Shown: positions 12,123-18,525 of the stretch, piece after piece
Numbering within the stretch: position 1 is the first letter of the stretch
How the letters are laid out: each line of letters starts with the position of its first letter
Assembly (NCBI GenBank): GCA_017640505.1
Contig: JAEPQO010000001.1
Location: forward strand, 1,070,625 to 1,134,624
DNA: 64,000 nt
DNA from: Rhodospirillales bacterium
GTDB lineage: Bacteria; Pseudomonadota; Alphaproteobacteria; Rhodospirillales; Casp-alpha2
Direction of reading: 5' to 3'
Notes under the pieces: model-generated
The model's input: only the letters and a program-made list of their open reading frames with translations
What the model was told of the DNA's origin: nothing
The model's database searches: none
Translations under genes and position numbers: made by a program

Positions 12123-12638
12123 TTACTGTGCGAACTCGATCCGGTCGAACATCTCGTCGAGCGCTTCCTGTGCACAGGCTTCGTCGATATCGCCGCCCGG
12201 TGCGCCGCTGACACCGACGGCGCCGATGCGCATACCGCCGGCGCTGATCGGCAGACCGCCGTCCATCATTTTGACGTCTTCAAGCAGGTTCAGCGTTGCC
12301 GCGAGTTCGGGACGGTTCGCCCGCAAATCGGATGTCGAGGTGCCGGCCATCATTGCGCCGCGTGCTTTGCCGCCGGCAATGACGATCGTCGCCGCGGCGG
12401 CGAACTGGTGACGCAGCATGGCGATATCGTTGCCCCCACGATCGACGACCACAGCCGCGACGGAGTAACCCTTGGCGTCGCATGCGGCGACGGTCTTATC
12501 GGCAATATCGCGGGCAAGCGCTGTGCCGATGGCCTTCACGTTGAGCACATCCTGCGCGCGCGCATCGGGAATGGCGGTCGCGCTCAGCGCGGCAGTCAGC
12601 GTCAGCGCGGAAATTACGAATTTTGCGTTCTGGAACAT
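12123..12638 (-). CDS. Exported GlcG/HbpS family heme-binding-like protein
   Basis: Protein of about 171 residues: a cleavable Sec signal peptide (MFQNAKFVISALTLTAALSATAIPDARAQ) followed by one GlcG/HbpS (DUF336) domain. The family pattern is clear in GYSVAAVVVDRGGNDIAMLRHQFAAAATIVIAGGKARGAMM and in GGLPISAGGMRIGAVGVSGAPGGDIDEACAQEALD. Some members bind heme; most have no assigned function. The start at 12638 has GGGAGAG upstream. It is divergent from pgeF with an inverted repeat between them. A cytoplasmic paralogue lies at 49.2 kb. Confidence 0.88.
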   Translation of the reverse strand: MFQNAKFVISALTLTAALSATAIPDARAQDVLNVKAIGTALARDIADKTVAACDAKGYSVAAVVVDRGGNDIAMLRHQFAAAATIVIAGGKARGAMMAGTSTSDLRANRPELAATLNLLEDVKMMDGGLPISAGGMRIGAVGVSGAPGGDIDEACAQEALDEMFDRIEFAQ

Positions 12639-12713
12639 GGTATCTCTCCCTTCGTTACTGCCCGGCACGTCTGCGGGCAGGATATATCGTTTTTTTCAAG
12701 TGTTCTTGGAATA

Positions 12714-12795: not shown

Positions 12796-13563
12796 ATGAT
12801 TACCGCAGAGAATCTCAGCGATGCCGAAGGTGTCCGGCACTTGTTTTTTTCCCGCAACGGCGGCGTCAGCGGCGGCATATATTCCTCCTTGAATTGTGGT
12901 CCGGGATCGTCGGACGACCAAGCGTCCGTTCTCGATAACCGTGCCCGAGCCATGGCGGCACTGGACCAGGAGCCGGAAAATCTGGTGACGGTTTATCAGT
13001 ATCATTCACCCGTTGTTGTCGAAGTCCACGAGGCATGGGCCCTCGGCGAGGCGCCTAAGGCGGACGCGATGGTCACGACGGAGCCGGGAATCGTCCTCGG
13101 TATTCTGACGGCGGATTGTGCGCCGGTGCTGTTCGCCGACGCCGATGCCGGTGTGATCGGCGCTGCCCACGCGGGGTGGAAAGGCGCCCTTGGCGGTGTC
13201 ATCGACGCTACTGTAGAAGCGATGGTGGACGCGGGCGCGCAGCTGGACCGGATCGCGGCCGCCGTCGGTCCGTGTATCCAGCAACCGTCCTACGAAGTGG
13301 GCGCCGACTTCCGTTCGTCCTTCCTTGAAGCGGGTTCCGGCAACGATCGGTTTTTTGCGCGCGGCGCAATCGAAGGGAAGTTCCAGTTCGATCTGAGCGG
13401 CTATGTGCGTCATCGGTTGACAGAATGCAGCGTGGGTTCGATAGAAATCCTGCCGATCGACACCTACACCGAAGAGGATCGTTTTTTCAGCTACCGCCGC
13501 GCCACGCATCGGGGCGAGCCGGATTACGGTCGCGAACTCTCGGCTATCGTTCTGGAAGGATAA
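12796..13563 (+). CDS. pgeF: Peptidoglycan editing factor PgeF (multicopper polyphenol oxidase family)
   Basis: Cytoplasmic protein of about 255 residues of the YfiH/DUF152 family. E. coli PgeF prevents wrong amino acids from entering peptidoglycan stem peptides; homologues are also described as purine nucleoside-cleaving or laccase-like. Metal-site motifs are present: the TADCAPVLFAD cysteine, the HAGWKGALGGV histidine, and GPCIQQPSYEVG. It begins with a typical VRHLFFSRNGGVSGGIYSSLN. It ends 5 bases before the following M24 gene, so they are probably cotranscribed. Confidence 0.93.
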   Translation: MITAENLSDAEGVRHLFFSRNGGVSGGIYSSLNCGPGSSDDQASVLDNRARAMAALDQEPENLVTVYQYHSPVVVEVHEAWALGEAPKADAMVTTEPGIVLGILTADCAPVLFADADAGVIGAAHAGWKGALGGVIDATVEAMVDAGAQLDRIAAAVGPCIQQPSYEVGADFRSSFLEAGSGNDRFFARGAIEGKFQFDLSGYVRHRLTECSVGSIEILPIDTYTEEDRFFSYRRATHRGEPDYGRELSAIVLEG

Positions 13564-13568
13564 TCTGA

Positions 13569-14723
13569 ATGGCACTTCATTTCAGCGAAGCGGAACTCGC
13601 GGTCCGCCGTGACCGCACATGCGAGGCGATGGCCGACGCGGGTCTGGACGGCATGCTGATCTTCCGTCAGGAAAGCATGTACTACCTGACCGGTTACGAC
13701 ACCTTCGGGTACGTGTTCTTCCAGTGCCTGTATCTTGGCAGTGACGGCCGGATGATGCTGTTGACCCGCGCGCCCGATCTGCGGCAGGCGCAGAACACCT
13801 CCGTGATCGAGGATATCCGGATCTGGGTCGACAAACCGGATGCCGGCCCGGCGGAGGAACTTCGCGGTATCCTGGAAGAATTCGGCTGCAAGGGCCGGCG
13901 CCTCGGTGTCGAATACGAGGCCTACGGCCTGACGGCCAGAAACGGTAAGCGGCTGGATGCGGCGCTTGACGGTTTCTGTGTCCTTGAGGACGCATCGGAA
14001 CTGATTAGCCGGTTGCGTGTCGTCAAAAGCCCGGCCGAGATCGAGTATGTGCGGCAAGCGGCGGCGCTCGCGGACGATGCGCTGGATGCGGCGATTGCGA
14101 CGGCGGCGCCGGGCGTGTCCGAGTCCGATATCCTGGCAGCCATGCAGGGCGCCGTGTTCAAGGGCGGCGGCGACTATCCGGGGAATCCCTTCATTATCGG
14201 GTCCGCCGAGGATGCGTTGCTGTGCCGGACCAAGTCGGGGCGGCGTACGCTCGATACGAACGATCAGCTGAACCTGGAATGGGCGGGGACGTACCTGCAC
14301 TATCACGCCGCCATGTTCCGGACCATGGTGTTCGGTGACATGCCGGACCGCCAGAAACAGATGTACGACGTCGCCTACGAGGCGTTGATGGCCGTCGAGG
14401 ATGCACTGCGCCCGGGCAATATCGTCGGTGATGCGTTTCAGGCCTATGCCGACGTGATCGACCGCGCAGGCATGAAGGAACATCGCCTGAACGCCTGCGG
14501 ATACAGTCTTGGCACGACGTTTCAGCCGAACTGGATGGACTGGCCGATGCTGTATGCCGATAATCCGGTCGAGATCGAGCCGGGCATGGTGTATTTCTGC
14601 CATATGATTATCTTCGACAGCGATGCGCAATTGGCGATGTGCCTGGGCGAAACCGTGTTGACCACCTCCGGCGCAGCGGAAAGATTGTCCCGTTCGCCAT
14701 TGGACCTGATTCATAAGGCCTGA
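13569..14723 (+). CDS. M24 family pita-bread protein, creatinase/ectoine-hydrolase-like, metal site not conserved
   Basis: Protein of about 384 residues: an N-terminal creatinase-type domain (1-135) and a C-terminal M24 fold. In metal-dependent members the five ligands are Asp, Asp, His, Glu and Glu. Here the first pair region reads LNLEWAGTYLHYHAAMFRT, the GHG(I/L)G motif reads GYSLGTT, and the first Glu region reads EPGMVYFCHM; only CLGETVL keeps a Glu. That pattern resembles creatinase and ectoine hydrolase DoeA rather than Xaa-Pro peptidases, so a non-metal C-N hydrolase is likely. The substrate is unknown and no ectoine genes are nearby. Confidence 0.82.
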   Translation: MALHFSEAELAVRRDRTCEAMADAGLDGMLIFRQESMYYLTGYDTFGYVFFQCLYLGSDGRMMLLTRAPDLRQAQNTSVIEDIRIWVDKPDAGPAEELRGILEEFGCKGRRLGVEYEAYGLTARNGKRLDAALDGFCVLEDASELISRLRVVKSPAEIEYVRQAAALADDALDAAIATAAPGVSESDILAAMQGAVFKGGGDYPGNPFIIGSAEDALLCRTKSGRRTLDTNDQLNLEWAGTYLHYHAAMFRTMVFGDMPDRQKQMYDVAYEALMAVEDALRPGNIVGDAFQAYADVIDRAGMKEHRLNACGYSLGTTFQPNWMDWPMLYADNPVEIEPGMVYFCHMIIFDSDAQLAMCLGETVLTTSGAAERLSRSPLDLIHKA

Positions 14724-14821: not shown

Positions 14822-15814
14822 ATGAAACGCGCCGCCATAAGCCTTTTTCTGGCGCTTTTCATTGTTTCCGCGTGCGGTCCGCTGCCGAGGCCTTTTGGGC
14901 GCGACGACGGTGACAGCGGTACCAAGTTGGCCAGGCAAATTTTCTTCGAGGGCGTGGAAGTGCAGCCGATGACCGGTACGACCAAGCCGATGAGCGAGCT
15001 CATCGCGGATGCCGTCATCGGCCGGCTCCAGAATACCTATGAGATTCCCGCATCGTATCAAGGGATGGACAGAAGCGAGTTCGTGCTGCTGGGGCACGTT
15101 GTCGACAACCAGGCGGACCCCGGGGTCTCGGAGCCGATCAGCGTGGAGTGGCAACTGCTTCGGCGTGACGGCGAGGTCCTGGAGCGGTTTGTCGACGCCG
15201 TCGATGCGAGTCGCCTCGAATGGGACTACGGTTCGGCGCCCATGCTGGAGAAGATCGGCGAGCGTATCAGCACGCGTGTGGCGAAGGCGGTGTTGGGCGA
15301 GCGTTTCGGCACGACGGGGCAGGATCGCCTGCTGGGCCGCGCCGGGGTCTATATCGGTCAGGTTACCGGCGCGCCCGGCGACGGGAATGTATCGTTGCGA
15401 CGTGCGATGGCGGTGGCCCTGGGCGGTGGCGGCGTGAGGCTGACGAACAACCCGGTCGAGGCAATATTCACGCTCAGCGGGACCGTCGAGATGGGGTCCC
15501 CCGAGAACAATGCCCAGTCGATAAGGATCGTCTGGGACGTCAAGGATGTCGACGGGCAGGTTGTCGGGACCGCCCGCCAGTCGAACGTGGTTGCAGCCGG
15601 AAGTCTTGACGGTAGCTGGGGCCGAACGGCGGCATTTGTCGCCGCTGCCGCGACCGAGGGCATCATCAAGGTCGTACGCCAGAATGATCCCAACAAGCTA
15701 CGTGCGCCCAATCTCGGCGCGCCGCGCCCGCCGCGTGATATTCCGCAGACGGCCCCGCCGCGGACGCCGATCCTCAAGCAGCAGCCGGGGCGCGCACCGC
15801 CCCCGCCGACGTAA
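14822..15814 (+). CDS. Lipoprotein of unknown function, two copies of an unrecognised domain
   Basis: Protein of about 330 residues with a lipoprotein signal peptide (MKRAAISLFLALFIVSAC, Cys at residue 18). A first domain (about residues 40-160) and a second (about 175-290) share a layout: helix, strand ending before a W-x-hydrophobic strand, then a helix. The second contains VTGAPGDGN, IRIVWDVKDVDGQVVG and GSLDGSWGR. The tail is Pro/Arg-rich. I do not recognise a named family. The next gene encodes a second lipoprotein sharing these motifs, so both probably act together in the envelope. The start at 14822 follows GAGGCCCGGC. Confidence 0.8.
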   Translation: MKRAAISLFLALFIVSACGPLPRPFGRDDGDSGTKLARQIFFEGVEVQPMTGTTKPMSELIADAVIGRLQNTYEIPASYQGMDRSEFVLLGHVVDNQADPGVSEPISVEWQLLRRDGEVLERFVDAVDASRLEWDYGSAPMLEKIGERISTRVAKAVLGERFGTTGQDRLLGRAGVYIGQVTGAPGDGNVSLRRAMAVALGGGGVRLTNNPVEAIFTLSGTVEMGSPENNAQSIRIVWDVKDVDGQVVGTARQSNVVAAGSLDGSWGRTAAFVAAAATEGIIKVVRQNDPNKLRAPNLGAPRPPRDIPQTAPPRTPILKQQPGRAPPPPT

Positions 15815-15929
15815 CGCTTCTCCCTGACGGACCGCGCCGACTGTTTTTACTGAAAAGGGGCGCCGGGACTGGTAGATTCTAAAGGTGGCGACATGGCTCT
15901 CGAGACATGAGAATTCATGGCGGCTTGGC

Positions 15930-17474
15930 GTGCGCGTCCGGTCGATGACGTTTGCTGCCTACGCCTTGCTGAGCCTGACTTTGCTGCTGACGGGATGTGC
16001 CCAGAGTAGCGGTGGCGAACCGCCGCCGGGCGCAAGCCTCAGCGGCGAATCGGCAGGTGCTCCGGGCGACATGACGGGTATAATTTTCGTCGTGCCCCTC
16101 GAAGGCGCCCCGGTGCGTACCGCCCTCGTTCTCGCCGATGCGATCGCCGCGGAAATCCGCGACACGAACCGACCGGCCATTCTTTCCCATGATCCCAACC
16201 AGGCGGGGGCTTCGGTTGTCGGCAAGATCGCGACGGCCGATACGCGTGGCAACGTGATCTGGCTGGGTATCGACTGGGCTATTCGCGCACCTTACGGCAC
16301 TCACGTCGCGACTTATCGTCAGCATGTCGTCGTCGACGCGGCAATGTGGCAGCGCGCGGCGCCGGAAGCCATCAACCTGATCATCGCAGACGCCGCGCCA
16401 AAGGTGGCTGAGATGGTCGCGGCGGAAGTCGGGCCGCCAATGATGGCAGCAATGCATCATCCCGAGATATCGCCTCAAGAAACCGCGGCACCGGACCCGG
16501 CGGTGACGGGGACGACAATGGATGTCCGACGCCAGCAGATGCAGACGACGGACGCGGCTCCCTCTGCGGCTCCGGACGCCGCGCCGGTGCCTGCACAACC
16601 ACAGCCGCAGCCGCAACCGCTGGCGCGGATCGCCGACGCGACCAACGGCCAGGTGGTGCATGCTGCCGGTGCGCCTGAAGCGCCCCGCGAGACGGCGCCG
16701 CCACCCGCGCCGGAACCTGCAACGGAGGCGACATCGGCGGCCGATGCGCCGCCGGACGGCCTGCCCTCGCTGCTGACCCCGGTGCCGCCGCAGCAGGCCG
16801 ACGGCGGAGACGCCGCGCATGTTTCCTCCGGGCCGCCGCAGGCCCTGACACCGGGGACGCGGGTGGTGTCGCCCCCGCCCGGCGGCGTTGCCGGCAATAC
16901 GGCCGAGACGGAGCCGGAGGAGAGCTTCCTCGATGCCCTCAACCCCAATCTGGACAGCAAAACGCGTCTCGACGGCGACGCGCGGCCGAACAGTGACGGC
17001 ATCGCCTTCGCAAAGGTGCGCTGGGGGCAGCCGTCATTCCTAATCAAACCGGTCACGGGCGCCCCCGGTAATGGAAATGAGGCACTGACGGCGGCACTGA
17101 AATCGGCACTTCGCGACAAGGATTTAACGATTTCCGAAGATCCGAGGCAGGCCGGGTTCATTATTCAGGGTAACGTCGACACGGGCGACCCGGTCAACGG
17201 CCGGCAGTACGTGCGGATCATTTGGCGTGTGAATACCGTGACCGGCGAGGAGGTCGGCAAGGCCGTGCAGGAGAATACCGTCGTCGCCGGCAGCCTCGAC
17301 GGTGAATGGGGGCGGGTCGCCGAAGCGGTGTCTTACGCCGCCGTCCGGGGCATCAGCGACTTGTTCAGCGATGCCGATGCTCACCTGACGAGCCGTGAAC
17401 CACTGCCCGATTTCCCCGATGTTCAGCTGCCCAGTGTCCCGGGCCGCGCGCCACCGCCGCCGGCATCCTACTGA
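15930..17474 (+). CDS. Large lipoprotein related to the preceding one, with a Pro/Ala/Gln-rich linker
   Basis: Protein of about 514 residues. The lipobox is LTLLLTGC. An N-terminal domain (about 45-165) is joined by a long low-complexity Pro/Ala/Gln linker (with PAQPQPQPQPL) to a C-terminal domain (about 370-495) containing VTGAPGNGN, VRIIWRVNTVTGEEVG and VVAGSLDGEWGR, the same signatures as its neighbour. The start is uncertain: GTG 15930 gives a positively charged signal n-region (RVRS), ATG 15945 is shorter, GTG 15885 longer. No enzymatic motifs were seen. Both proteins end in a similar GRAPPPP tail. Confidence 0.8.
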   Translation: MRVRSMTFAAYALLSLTLLLTGCAQSSGGEPPPGASLSGESAGAPGDMTGIIFVVPLEGAPVRTALVLADAIAAEIRDTNRPAILSHDPNQAGASVVGKIATADTRGNVIWLGIDWAIRAPYGTHVATYRQHVVVDAAMWQRAAPEAINLIIADAAPKVAEMVAAEVGPPMMAAMHHPEISPQETAAPDPAVTGTTMDVRRQQMQTTDAAPSAAPDAAPVPAQPQPQPQPLARIADATNGQVVHAAGAPEAPRETAPPPAPEPATEATSAADAPPDGLPSLLTPVPPQQADGGDAAHVSSGPPQALTPGTRVVSPPPGGVAGNTAETEPEESFLDALNPNLDSKTRLDGDARPNSDGIAFAKVRWGQPSFLIKPVTGAPGNGNEALTAALKSALRDKDLTISEDPRQAGFIIQGNVDTGDPVNGRQYVRIIWRVNTVTGEEVGKAVQENTVVAGSLDGEWGRVAEAVSYAAVRGISDLFSDADAHLTSREPLPDFPDVQLPSVPGRAPPPPASY

Positions 17475-17586: not shown

Positions 17587-18525
17587 ATGAAAATCATTGC
17601 TTGCAACAGCAATCGACCGCTCGCTGAGGCGATTTCCGCGTATGTGAACCTGCCGCTGACCAAGGCCAGCGTACGGCGCTTCTCAGACATGGAAGTATTT
17701 GTCGAGATCGAAGAGAACATGCGCGGCGAGGATGTCTTCGTCGTCCAGTCGACGTCTTATCCGGCGAACGACAACCTCATGGAACTGCTGGTGACGCTGG
17801 ATGCGCTGAGACGCGCGTCGGCGCGCCGGGTGACTGCGGTGATCCCGTACTTCGGCTATGCCCGGCAGGATCGCAAATCCGGCCCCAGAACCCCGATTTC
17901 CGCCAAGCTGGTCGCCAACCTGATTACCGAAGCCGGTGCCGACCGGGTGCTGACCATGGACCTGCACGCGGGGCAGATTCAGGGCTTTTTCGATATCCCG
18001 ACCGACAACCTGTTCGCCGAGCCGGTGCTGGGCGAGTACATCGAGACCGAGATGAACGGCAACACCGACGATCTCGTCATCGTGTCGCCCGACGTCGGCG
18101 GCGTGGTCCGTGCCCGCAGCCTCGCCAAGCGGCTCAATGCCGACCTGGCGATCATCGACAAGCGCCGCGAACGGGCCGGTGTCTCGGAAGTCATGAACAT
18201 CATCGGTGAGGCCGAAGGCCGTCACTGTATTCTGGTCGACGATATCGTCGACAGCGCCGGTACGCTCTGCAATGCCGCCGTGGCGATCATGGAAAAGGGC
18301 GCCAAGTCCGTTTCCGCCATCGTCACCCACGGTGTACTTTCGGGTGGCGCGGTCGCGCGCGTGACGTCGTCGCCGCTGGAAAAGCTGATCATTACCGACA
18401 GCATTCAGGCAACTGAAGCGGTTCGTGTTGCCCAGAACATTCATCAACTGACGGTCGCGCCCCTGATCGGCGAGGCCATGCAGCGGATCAGTTCGGAGAG
18501 CTCCGTTTCGTCGCTATTCGACTGA
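17587..18525 (+). CDS. prs: Ribose-phosphate pyrophosphokinase
   Basis: Makes PRPP from ribose-5-phosphate and ATP for nucleotide, His and Trp synthesis. About 312 residues, full length. It has the N-terminal [13 protein letters not shown] and [24 protein letters not shown], the class I PRPP synthase signature region [24 protein letters not shown], the flexible loop KRRERAG, and the PRPP-binding loop [18 protein letters not shown]. The start ATG 17587 is preceded by a pyrimidine-rich tract without a strong Shine-Dalgarno site. It begins the run prs-rplY-pth-ychF, all on the plus strand. Confidence 0.97.

Follow-up and report, generated by a model that had tools for sequence, protein, structure and literature searches.

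The window, by which we mean the whole 64,000-nucleotide stretch of DNA that was analysed, carries two adjacent lipoprotein genes, here called LpA and LpB, which lie downstream of genes for a peptidoglycan-editing factor and an M24-family peptidase and upstream of prs. The genes and their parts are as follows.

12123-12668, minus strand: HbpS-like haem-degrading gene (PF03928, E 2.6e-22)
12796-13563, plus strand: pgeF (YfiH), peptidoglycan-editing factor, the conserved upstream neighbour (PF02578, E 8e-71; synteny)
13569-14723, plus strand: M24-family peptidase, an upstream neighbour in some members only (synteny)
14822-15814, plus strand: LpA gene, 330-aa lipoprotein with two tandem domains (ATG at 14822, stop at 15814)
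14822-14872, plus strand: LpA signal peptide, aa 1-17 (sequence; the model shows a helix at 2-16)
14873-14896, plus strand: LpA lipidation Cys18 and membrane-proximal motif CGPLPRPF (alignment of 71 sequences)
14945-15304, plus strand: LpA N-terminal domain, aa 42-161 (model; homology to the other three domains)
15347-15682, plus strand: LpA C-terminal domain, aa 176-287, holding VTGAPGDGN and GSLDGSWGR (model; profile-profile homology)
15785-15811, plus strand: LpA C-terminal tail PGRAPPPPT (sequence)
15945-17474, plus strand: LpB gene, 509-aa lipoprotein with a long linker between two domains (ATG at 15945, stop at 17474)
15996-15998, plus strand: LpB lipidation Cys18, LLTGC-AQSS (sequence)
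16083-16430, plus strand: LpB N-terminal domain, aa 47-162 (model; profile-profile homology)
16437-17024, plus strand: LpB Pro/Ala-rich linker, aa 165-360, predicted disordered (pLDDT <50)
17034-17393, plus strand: LpB C-terminal domain, aa 364-483, holding VTGAPGNGN and GSLDGEWGR (model; profile-profile homology)
17439-17471, plus strand: LpB C-terminal tail PGRAPPPPASY (sequence)
17587-18525, plus strand: prs, ribose-phosphate pyrophosphokinase, the conserved downstream neighbour (synteny)

Both frames are conserved lipoprotein genes, with the coordinates and lipoboxes that an earlier note on this DNA had claimed (IVSAC18 in LpA and LLTGC18 in LpB); a GTG at 15885 lies upstream of the LpB ATG and in frame with it. 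Neither lipobox is followed by Asp at +2, so that outer-membrane sorting is the default expectation, and the two proteins are probably located in the outer membrane. The motif CGPLPRPF, directly after the lipidated cysteine, ranks among the most conserved stretches of LpA-type proteins (C18 is invariant in 71 sequences, and P22, P24, and F25 are each conserved in at least 90%) and is absent from LpB; the pattern C-G-P-L-P-x-P-F is found in 76 of 117 LpA-type proteins and 0 of 25 LpB-type proteins. The motifs that the note had picked out in both C-terminal domains, VTGAPG-GN, RI-W-V, and GSLDG-WGR, are found there as VTGAPG(D/N)GN, RI(V/I)W.V, and GSLDG.WGR, and both proteins finish with PGRAPPPP near the C-terminus. 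The 196-aa LpB linker includes 36 Ala, 35 Pro, and 12 Gln. A promoter and terminator scan gave 7 promoter-like sites against 3.1 (sd 2.1) in shuffles, a difference that carries no information, and Rfam and tRNA searches of the window returned no matches.

The two genes lie in a conserved block organized as lgt-midA-pgeF-(M24)-Lp-prs-rplY-pth-ychF. In gene-order counts covering 80 loci of the 471 relatives confirmed in a scan of named genomes, pgeF is located upstream in 72 (seven of the other eight begin near a contig end, L126 being the exception) and prs downstream in 63 (eight of the remaining 17 reach the contig end). The site is empty in eight sampled genomes that lack the family, with pgeF followed by prs and no lipoprotein between them (L177, L181, L183, L184, L186, L195, L196, and L200). 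The HbpS-like gene sits antisense between midA and pgeF, and in many relatives midA is directly beside pgeF. The conserved neighbourhood contains no transport, channel, exopolysaccharide, pel, lpt, curli, MCE, or pqiAB genes. PgeF is a cytoplasmic enzyme and most of the block lgt-midA-pgeF-prs-rplY-pth-ychF has housekeeping roles, which makes gene context a weak guide to function.

The four domains of LpA and LpB are homologous. The proposal that they are diverged copies of one domain is borne out by hhalign comparisons of domain profiles cut from alignments A3 (71 LpA-type sequences) and A4 (15 LpB-type sequences), in which all pairs align far above shuffled controls. The two LpA domains align at 98.8% (E 8e-17, 116 columns), the two N-terminal domains at 98.8%, and the two C-terminal domains at 100%; the remaining pairs give 96.5% (LpA-N with LpB-C), 97.0% (LpB-N with LpA-C), and 80% (LpB-N with LpB-C), and the control maximum is 10.7% (five of the six pairs were controlled, each against 30 column-shuffled targets). 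A mixed single-domain profile, which from the window included the two LpA copies only and neither LpB copy, picks up each of the four copies in the genome (E 3e-34, 7e-25, 2e-28, and 8e-14). Compared with two congeners, dN/dS is 0.08-0.23 and substitutions are concentrated at third codon positions, which indicates that both genes are coding and constrained.

LpA-type homologues are present in 169 of 199 genomes of the order (85%) and in 131 of 385 genomes of the class (about a third), and a phylum-level search found them in 23 of 299 genomes, all but one within the class. The sole match outside the class (G704, E 5e-4) falls in a Pro/Ala-rich stretch of a cytochrome-c-like frame and was discarded. 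Named relatives include Thalassospira lucentensis, Pacificispira spongiicola, Lichenicoccus roseus, and Desertibaculum subflavum. The commonest form of the family is a single two-domain protein encoded between pgeF and prs, and LpB is much more restricted: in a search of 317 genomes of the order with the LpB N-terminal domain, strong matches were found in 29 of the 48 genomes of the window's taxonomic family and in five outside it, and eight further genomes of that taxonomic family, all of one genus, gave weak matches only.

In a tree of 150 C-terminal domains, which has few alignment columns and many unsupported deep forks, LpB forms a single clade (97/88; one change in 97% of bootstraps). 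The LpA-LpB pair is thus a clade-limited tandem duplication and not the general form of the family. The linker between the domains has a median length of 10 aa in LpA and of 160 aa in LpB (range 89-205 in 17 LpB proteins). In the inspected loci of the eight-genome genus with weak LpB matches a fused form is found, in which LpA is followed by a 113-aa linker and the LpB C-terminal domain, the LpB N-terminal domain being gone; these single genes of about 565-610 aa are present at seven loci (L010, L013, L014, L016, L019, L074, and L084) and belong to one genus (g4) where typed. The first C-terminal domain of the fused proteins groups with LpA, and the second forms one clade that is weakly placed near LpB.

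These data bear on the suggestion that LpA and LpB form a conserved two-component complex. Joint function is supported, in that LpB follows directly on LpA wherever the contig extends far enough to show it and in that LpA is fused to the LpB C-terminal domain in one genus, but as a conserved arrangement the suggestion holds only in part, because most relatives are single two-domain proteins and LpB is limited to one clade. We note that many of the loci are from metagenome bins and that a contig end or an apparent frameshift disrupts several of the LpB frames; the interruptions at L005, L042, L045, and L064 (stop codons, frameshifts, or contig ends) may reflect assembly errors or decay.

The GRAPPPP-like tails were described as a property of both proteins, which is correct for the window, but in most two-copy genomes LpB alone has the tail. 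The pattern PGRA.PP occurs in 20 of 25 LpB proteins (the other five are one with QGRAPPPP and four that are truncated or frameshifted), and only 19 of 117 LpA-type proteins have a tail like that of LpA in the window. The carriers of PGRAPPPP are nearly all complete LpB proteins, the LpA proteins of the window's genus, and single-copy members from some other taxonomic families. This is consistent with an ancestral single protein that had the tail, and with LpB retaining both tail and reach after duplication while LpA mostly lost the tail.

Simpler forms are found elsewhere in the class. In two taxonomic families (f199 and f202) the lipoprotein between pgeF and prs has a Pro/Ala/Thr-rich linker followed by one domain, and these single-domain relatives match the LpA N-terminal domain profile at E values of about 1e-10 to 1e-4; at L302-L309, L311, and L312 such lipoproteins with linkers occupy the slot in the order pgeF-M24-x-prs. 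The family may therefore be older and wider than its two-domain form. A role for the GAPGDGN loop as an active site was considered and dropped, since single-domain relatives are without the loop. One relative (L314, 1958-2911, minus strand) has the family domain followed by a SPOR peptidoglycan-binding domain (PF05036, E 2.4e-14); its gene is downstream of a DNA photolyase-like gene, outside the pgeF locus. A Hyphomicrobiaceae metagenome-assembled genome encodes a protein (L120, 2276-3637) in which both domains are of the C type and neither is of the N type.

AlphaFold2 models both proteins with two domains, with pLDDT of about 85-97 within the domains (LpA, pLDDT 86 overall, pTM 0.57; LpB, pTM 0.31, with linker residues 165-360 below 50). 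All four predicted domains have the order strand-helix-three or four strands-helix (beta-alpha-beta-beta-beta-alpha). Foldseek matches of LpA in the PDB include PelC (E 3e-5), Campylobacter Cj1090c (4e-5), LptE (1.5e-4), TolB (6e-4), CsgG (9e-4), and PqiC (4e-3), and those of LpB include PelC (1e-5), a Neisseria lipoprotein (3e-5), and GNA1162 (5e-5), with LptE, PqiC, TolB, CsgG, and TraT also matching; several LptE structures match at about 1e-4 to 1e-3. Target-normalised TM-scores are 0.2-0.54 in the useful matches, so the likeness is at the level of fold only, and with such modest TM-scores and the pTM values given above the arrangement of the domains relative to each other is not fixed by the models. 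The domain is thus predicted to have a fold of the PelC/LptE/TolB-N/PqiC type, in agreement with the earlier guess of a CsgG/LpoB-type fold, with PelC, LptE, TolB-N, PqiC, and CsgG (and TraT for LpB) returned by Foldseek; LpoB is not among the best 50 structural matches listed for LpA or for LpB.

As had been anticipated, the domain is absent from standard family libraries: searches of Pfam, NCBIfam, and a PDB sequence set gave no credible match to LpA, LpB, or 71 relatives. No LpoB model is among the Pfam and NCBIfam matches to LpA and LpB at E values up to 10, nor among those to the 71 relatives; Pfam CsgG does not match LpA or LpB, and there are no curli genes in the conserved block. TolB_N (PF04052) gives no Pfam match and hhalign values of at most 5%, and TraT (PF05818) matches LpB at 13.4 bits, below the cut-off of 31, and eight of the 71 relatives weakly (best E 0.0018). 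PqiC/ABC_trans_aux (PF03886) also has no Pfam match to LpA or LpB, but is the only known family with a sequence-profile signal, aligning by hhalign at 50.7% with LpA-N and at 34.5% with the mixed domain profile (unrelated families, at most 0.9%); the match covers the domain partially and fails for both LpB domains. On the same scale LptE aligns with PqiC at 87.5% and with TolB at 2.6%. The LptE model (PF04390) does not match LpA or LpB and matches three of 71 relatives weakly (best E 0.003), and hhalign to an alphaproteobacterial LptE profile, using the LptE part alone without a longer neighbouring stretch, is at background (LpA-N 3.9%, other domains at most 0.7%). The host genome has separate genes elsewhere that match Pfam LptE above cut-off, PF03886, and TolB. 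Together we consider it very likely that LpA and LpB represent a novel sequence family with a known fold.

Other candidates were set aside. An LptM-like lipidated peptide was considered for CGPLPRPF, as nine of the 71 relatives match the NCBIfam LptM model (at values of at least 0.048) and two match Pfam LptM_cons, but the spacing of the motif differs and the matches were judged to reflect signal-peptide similarity. From their descriptions, PapS (with an OmpA-like domain) and the Rgs proteins RgsD and RgsS (with other domains) are distinct, and DalA was considered from its published description.

The explanation that we prefer, tentatively, is that LpA and LpB are an outer-membrane unit coupling wall growth to the outer membrane. 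The basic form would be a lone outer-membrane lipoprotein whose gene is flanked by pgeF (or the M24 gene) and prs; a tandem duplication of it in the window's taxonomic family would have given LpA, with two domains near the membrane anchor, and LpB, with an N-terminal domain, a disordered linker of about 160-200 aa, and a C-terminal domain. The two would act together as one unit in the outer membrane, with LpA as the membrane-proximal base and the LpB linker passing the last domain through the peptidoglycan mesh to make contact with a partner on the inner side. That partner would most likely be a peptidoglycan synthase or a regulator of one, and the contact would tie growth of the wall to the outer membrane, as LpoB does in enterobacteria. 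Adjacency and fusion suggest contact between LpA and LpB, and a joint unit is somewhat the likelier reading of the pair; the length of the linker suggests that the LpB C-terminal domain reaches through the wall. A part in controlling peptidoglycan is a possibility that we hold with reserve, suggested by the LpoB-like layout, the SPOR fusion, and the pgeF neighbour, whose product edits peptidoglycan precursors (PMC8844914).

We counted in favour of this LpoB-like reading the homology of the domains, the confident models, the fold matches, the single LpB clade, the LpA-LpB fusions, and the single-domain relatives, which have a lipobox, a Pro/Ala/Thr linker, and one domain in the same slot; we counted against it that the best structural matches are ring-forming or LPS-transport lipoproteins. 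The globular domain of LpoB is TolB-N-like and is preceded by a disordered N-terminal region (PMC7267771). Alphaproteobacteria are reported to be without LpoA and LpoB (PMC10470522, PMC3060616), and a regulator of the LpoB kind is thus missing there. The UB2H docking domain is reported to be strongly conserved in enterobacteria only (PMC3060616), so the partner of LpA and LpB would have to differ. We regard as doubtful the further step of seeing in this family the LpoA/LpoB equivalent that alphaproteobacteria lack, an outer-membrane lipoprotein ancestral in the pgeF-prs slot that would extend across the wall and activate peptidoglycan synthases, and that duplication in one lineage would have divided between a base (LpA) and an arm that reaches out (LpB).

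The main rival to the LpoB-like reading, and a serious one even though we think it rather unlikely, is a ring of the PelC/PqiC type that would line the outer membrane on its inner side and serve an export or lipid-transport channel as collar or docking ring; with two domains in tandem in each LpA, half as many subunits would be enough to close such a ring. Both models have PelC as their best structural match, PqiC, CsgG, and (for LpB) TraT match too, and the single profile signal to a known family is that of LpA-N to PqiC. The neighbourhood, without transport, channel, or exopolysaccharide genes, argues against a ring, as does the partial extent of the PqiC match and its failure for both LpB domains. 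Also counting against it, we know of no long linkers in PelC or PqiC such as those of LpB and the single-domain forms. PqiC is reported as an octamer and PelC as a dodecamer (PMC10897342; PMC12141448), and TraT as a decamer (PMC11733297), in keeping with a ring.

Unlikely too, and a little more so, is that the proteins passively tether the outer membrane to the peptidoglycan and so stabilise the envelope or the shape of the cell, in a role like that of Pal or of PapS of Rhodospirillum, a lipoprotein bridging outer membrane and wall (PMC11369160). The outer-membrane lipoprotein layout, the long linker, and the SPOR fusion in one relative would suit such a role, but neither LpA nor LpB has a known peptidoglycan-binding domain (OmpA-like, SPOR, or LysM) in Pfam, and PapS has an OmpA-like domain that this family does not.

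An accessory role in LPS transport, as an additional LptE-like partner of LptD, is improbable; LptE structures are among the best matches and a few relatives weakly match the LptE model, but the profiles are no more alike than background, a gene matching Pfam LptE is already present in the genome, and no lpt gene is nearby. Replacement of LptE was rejected as the main reading, given the true LptE elsewhere in the genome together with that background similarity. That the likeness of the domains is coincidental, or that the frames are not genes, has next to no probability given the hhalign controls, the dN/dS values, the hundreds of homologues, and the structure models.

Although widespread and usually present as a single copy at one conserved position next to pgeF, the family has no entry in Pfam or NCBIfam. 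Its duplication, linker, and fusion can be turned into specific hypotheses, and some members, such as Thalassospira lucentensis and Pacificispira spongiicola, are in culture. Among known systems, PelC is likewise an outer-membrane lipoprotein with a lipobox and is the best structural match (TM about 0.5 on PelC), but has one domain, forms a ring of 12, and serves Pel exopolysaccharide export with the PelB barrel in the pel operon, whereas LpA and LpB have no detected sequence similarity to it and a conserved neighbourhood without pel genes. PqiC (PF03886) is an outer-membrane lipoprotein with the same fold and weak profile similarity to LpA-N, but has one domain and works with PqiA and PqiB, and LpA and LpB have no genomic link to MCE or pqiAB genes. 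LptE (PF04390) shares location, lipidation, and fold class, but its profile similarity is at background. LpoB resembles the C-terminal half of LpB and the single-domain relatives in being a lipoprotein with a disordered linker and a TolB-N-like domain (PMC7267771), but there is no sequence match, LpA and LpB have two domains each, and LpoB is reported in enterobacteria only (PMC3060616). The N-terminal domain of TolB (PF04052) matches in structure, but TolB has a propeller and no lipobox, and CsgG and TraT, also structural matches, both span the membrane. The fold and the type of protein, an outer-membrane lipoprotein, are already known and this is not a categorically new system; what is novel is the sequence family and its arrangement, with tandem domains and a duplicated base-and-arm pair.
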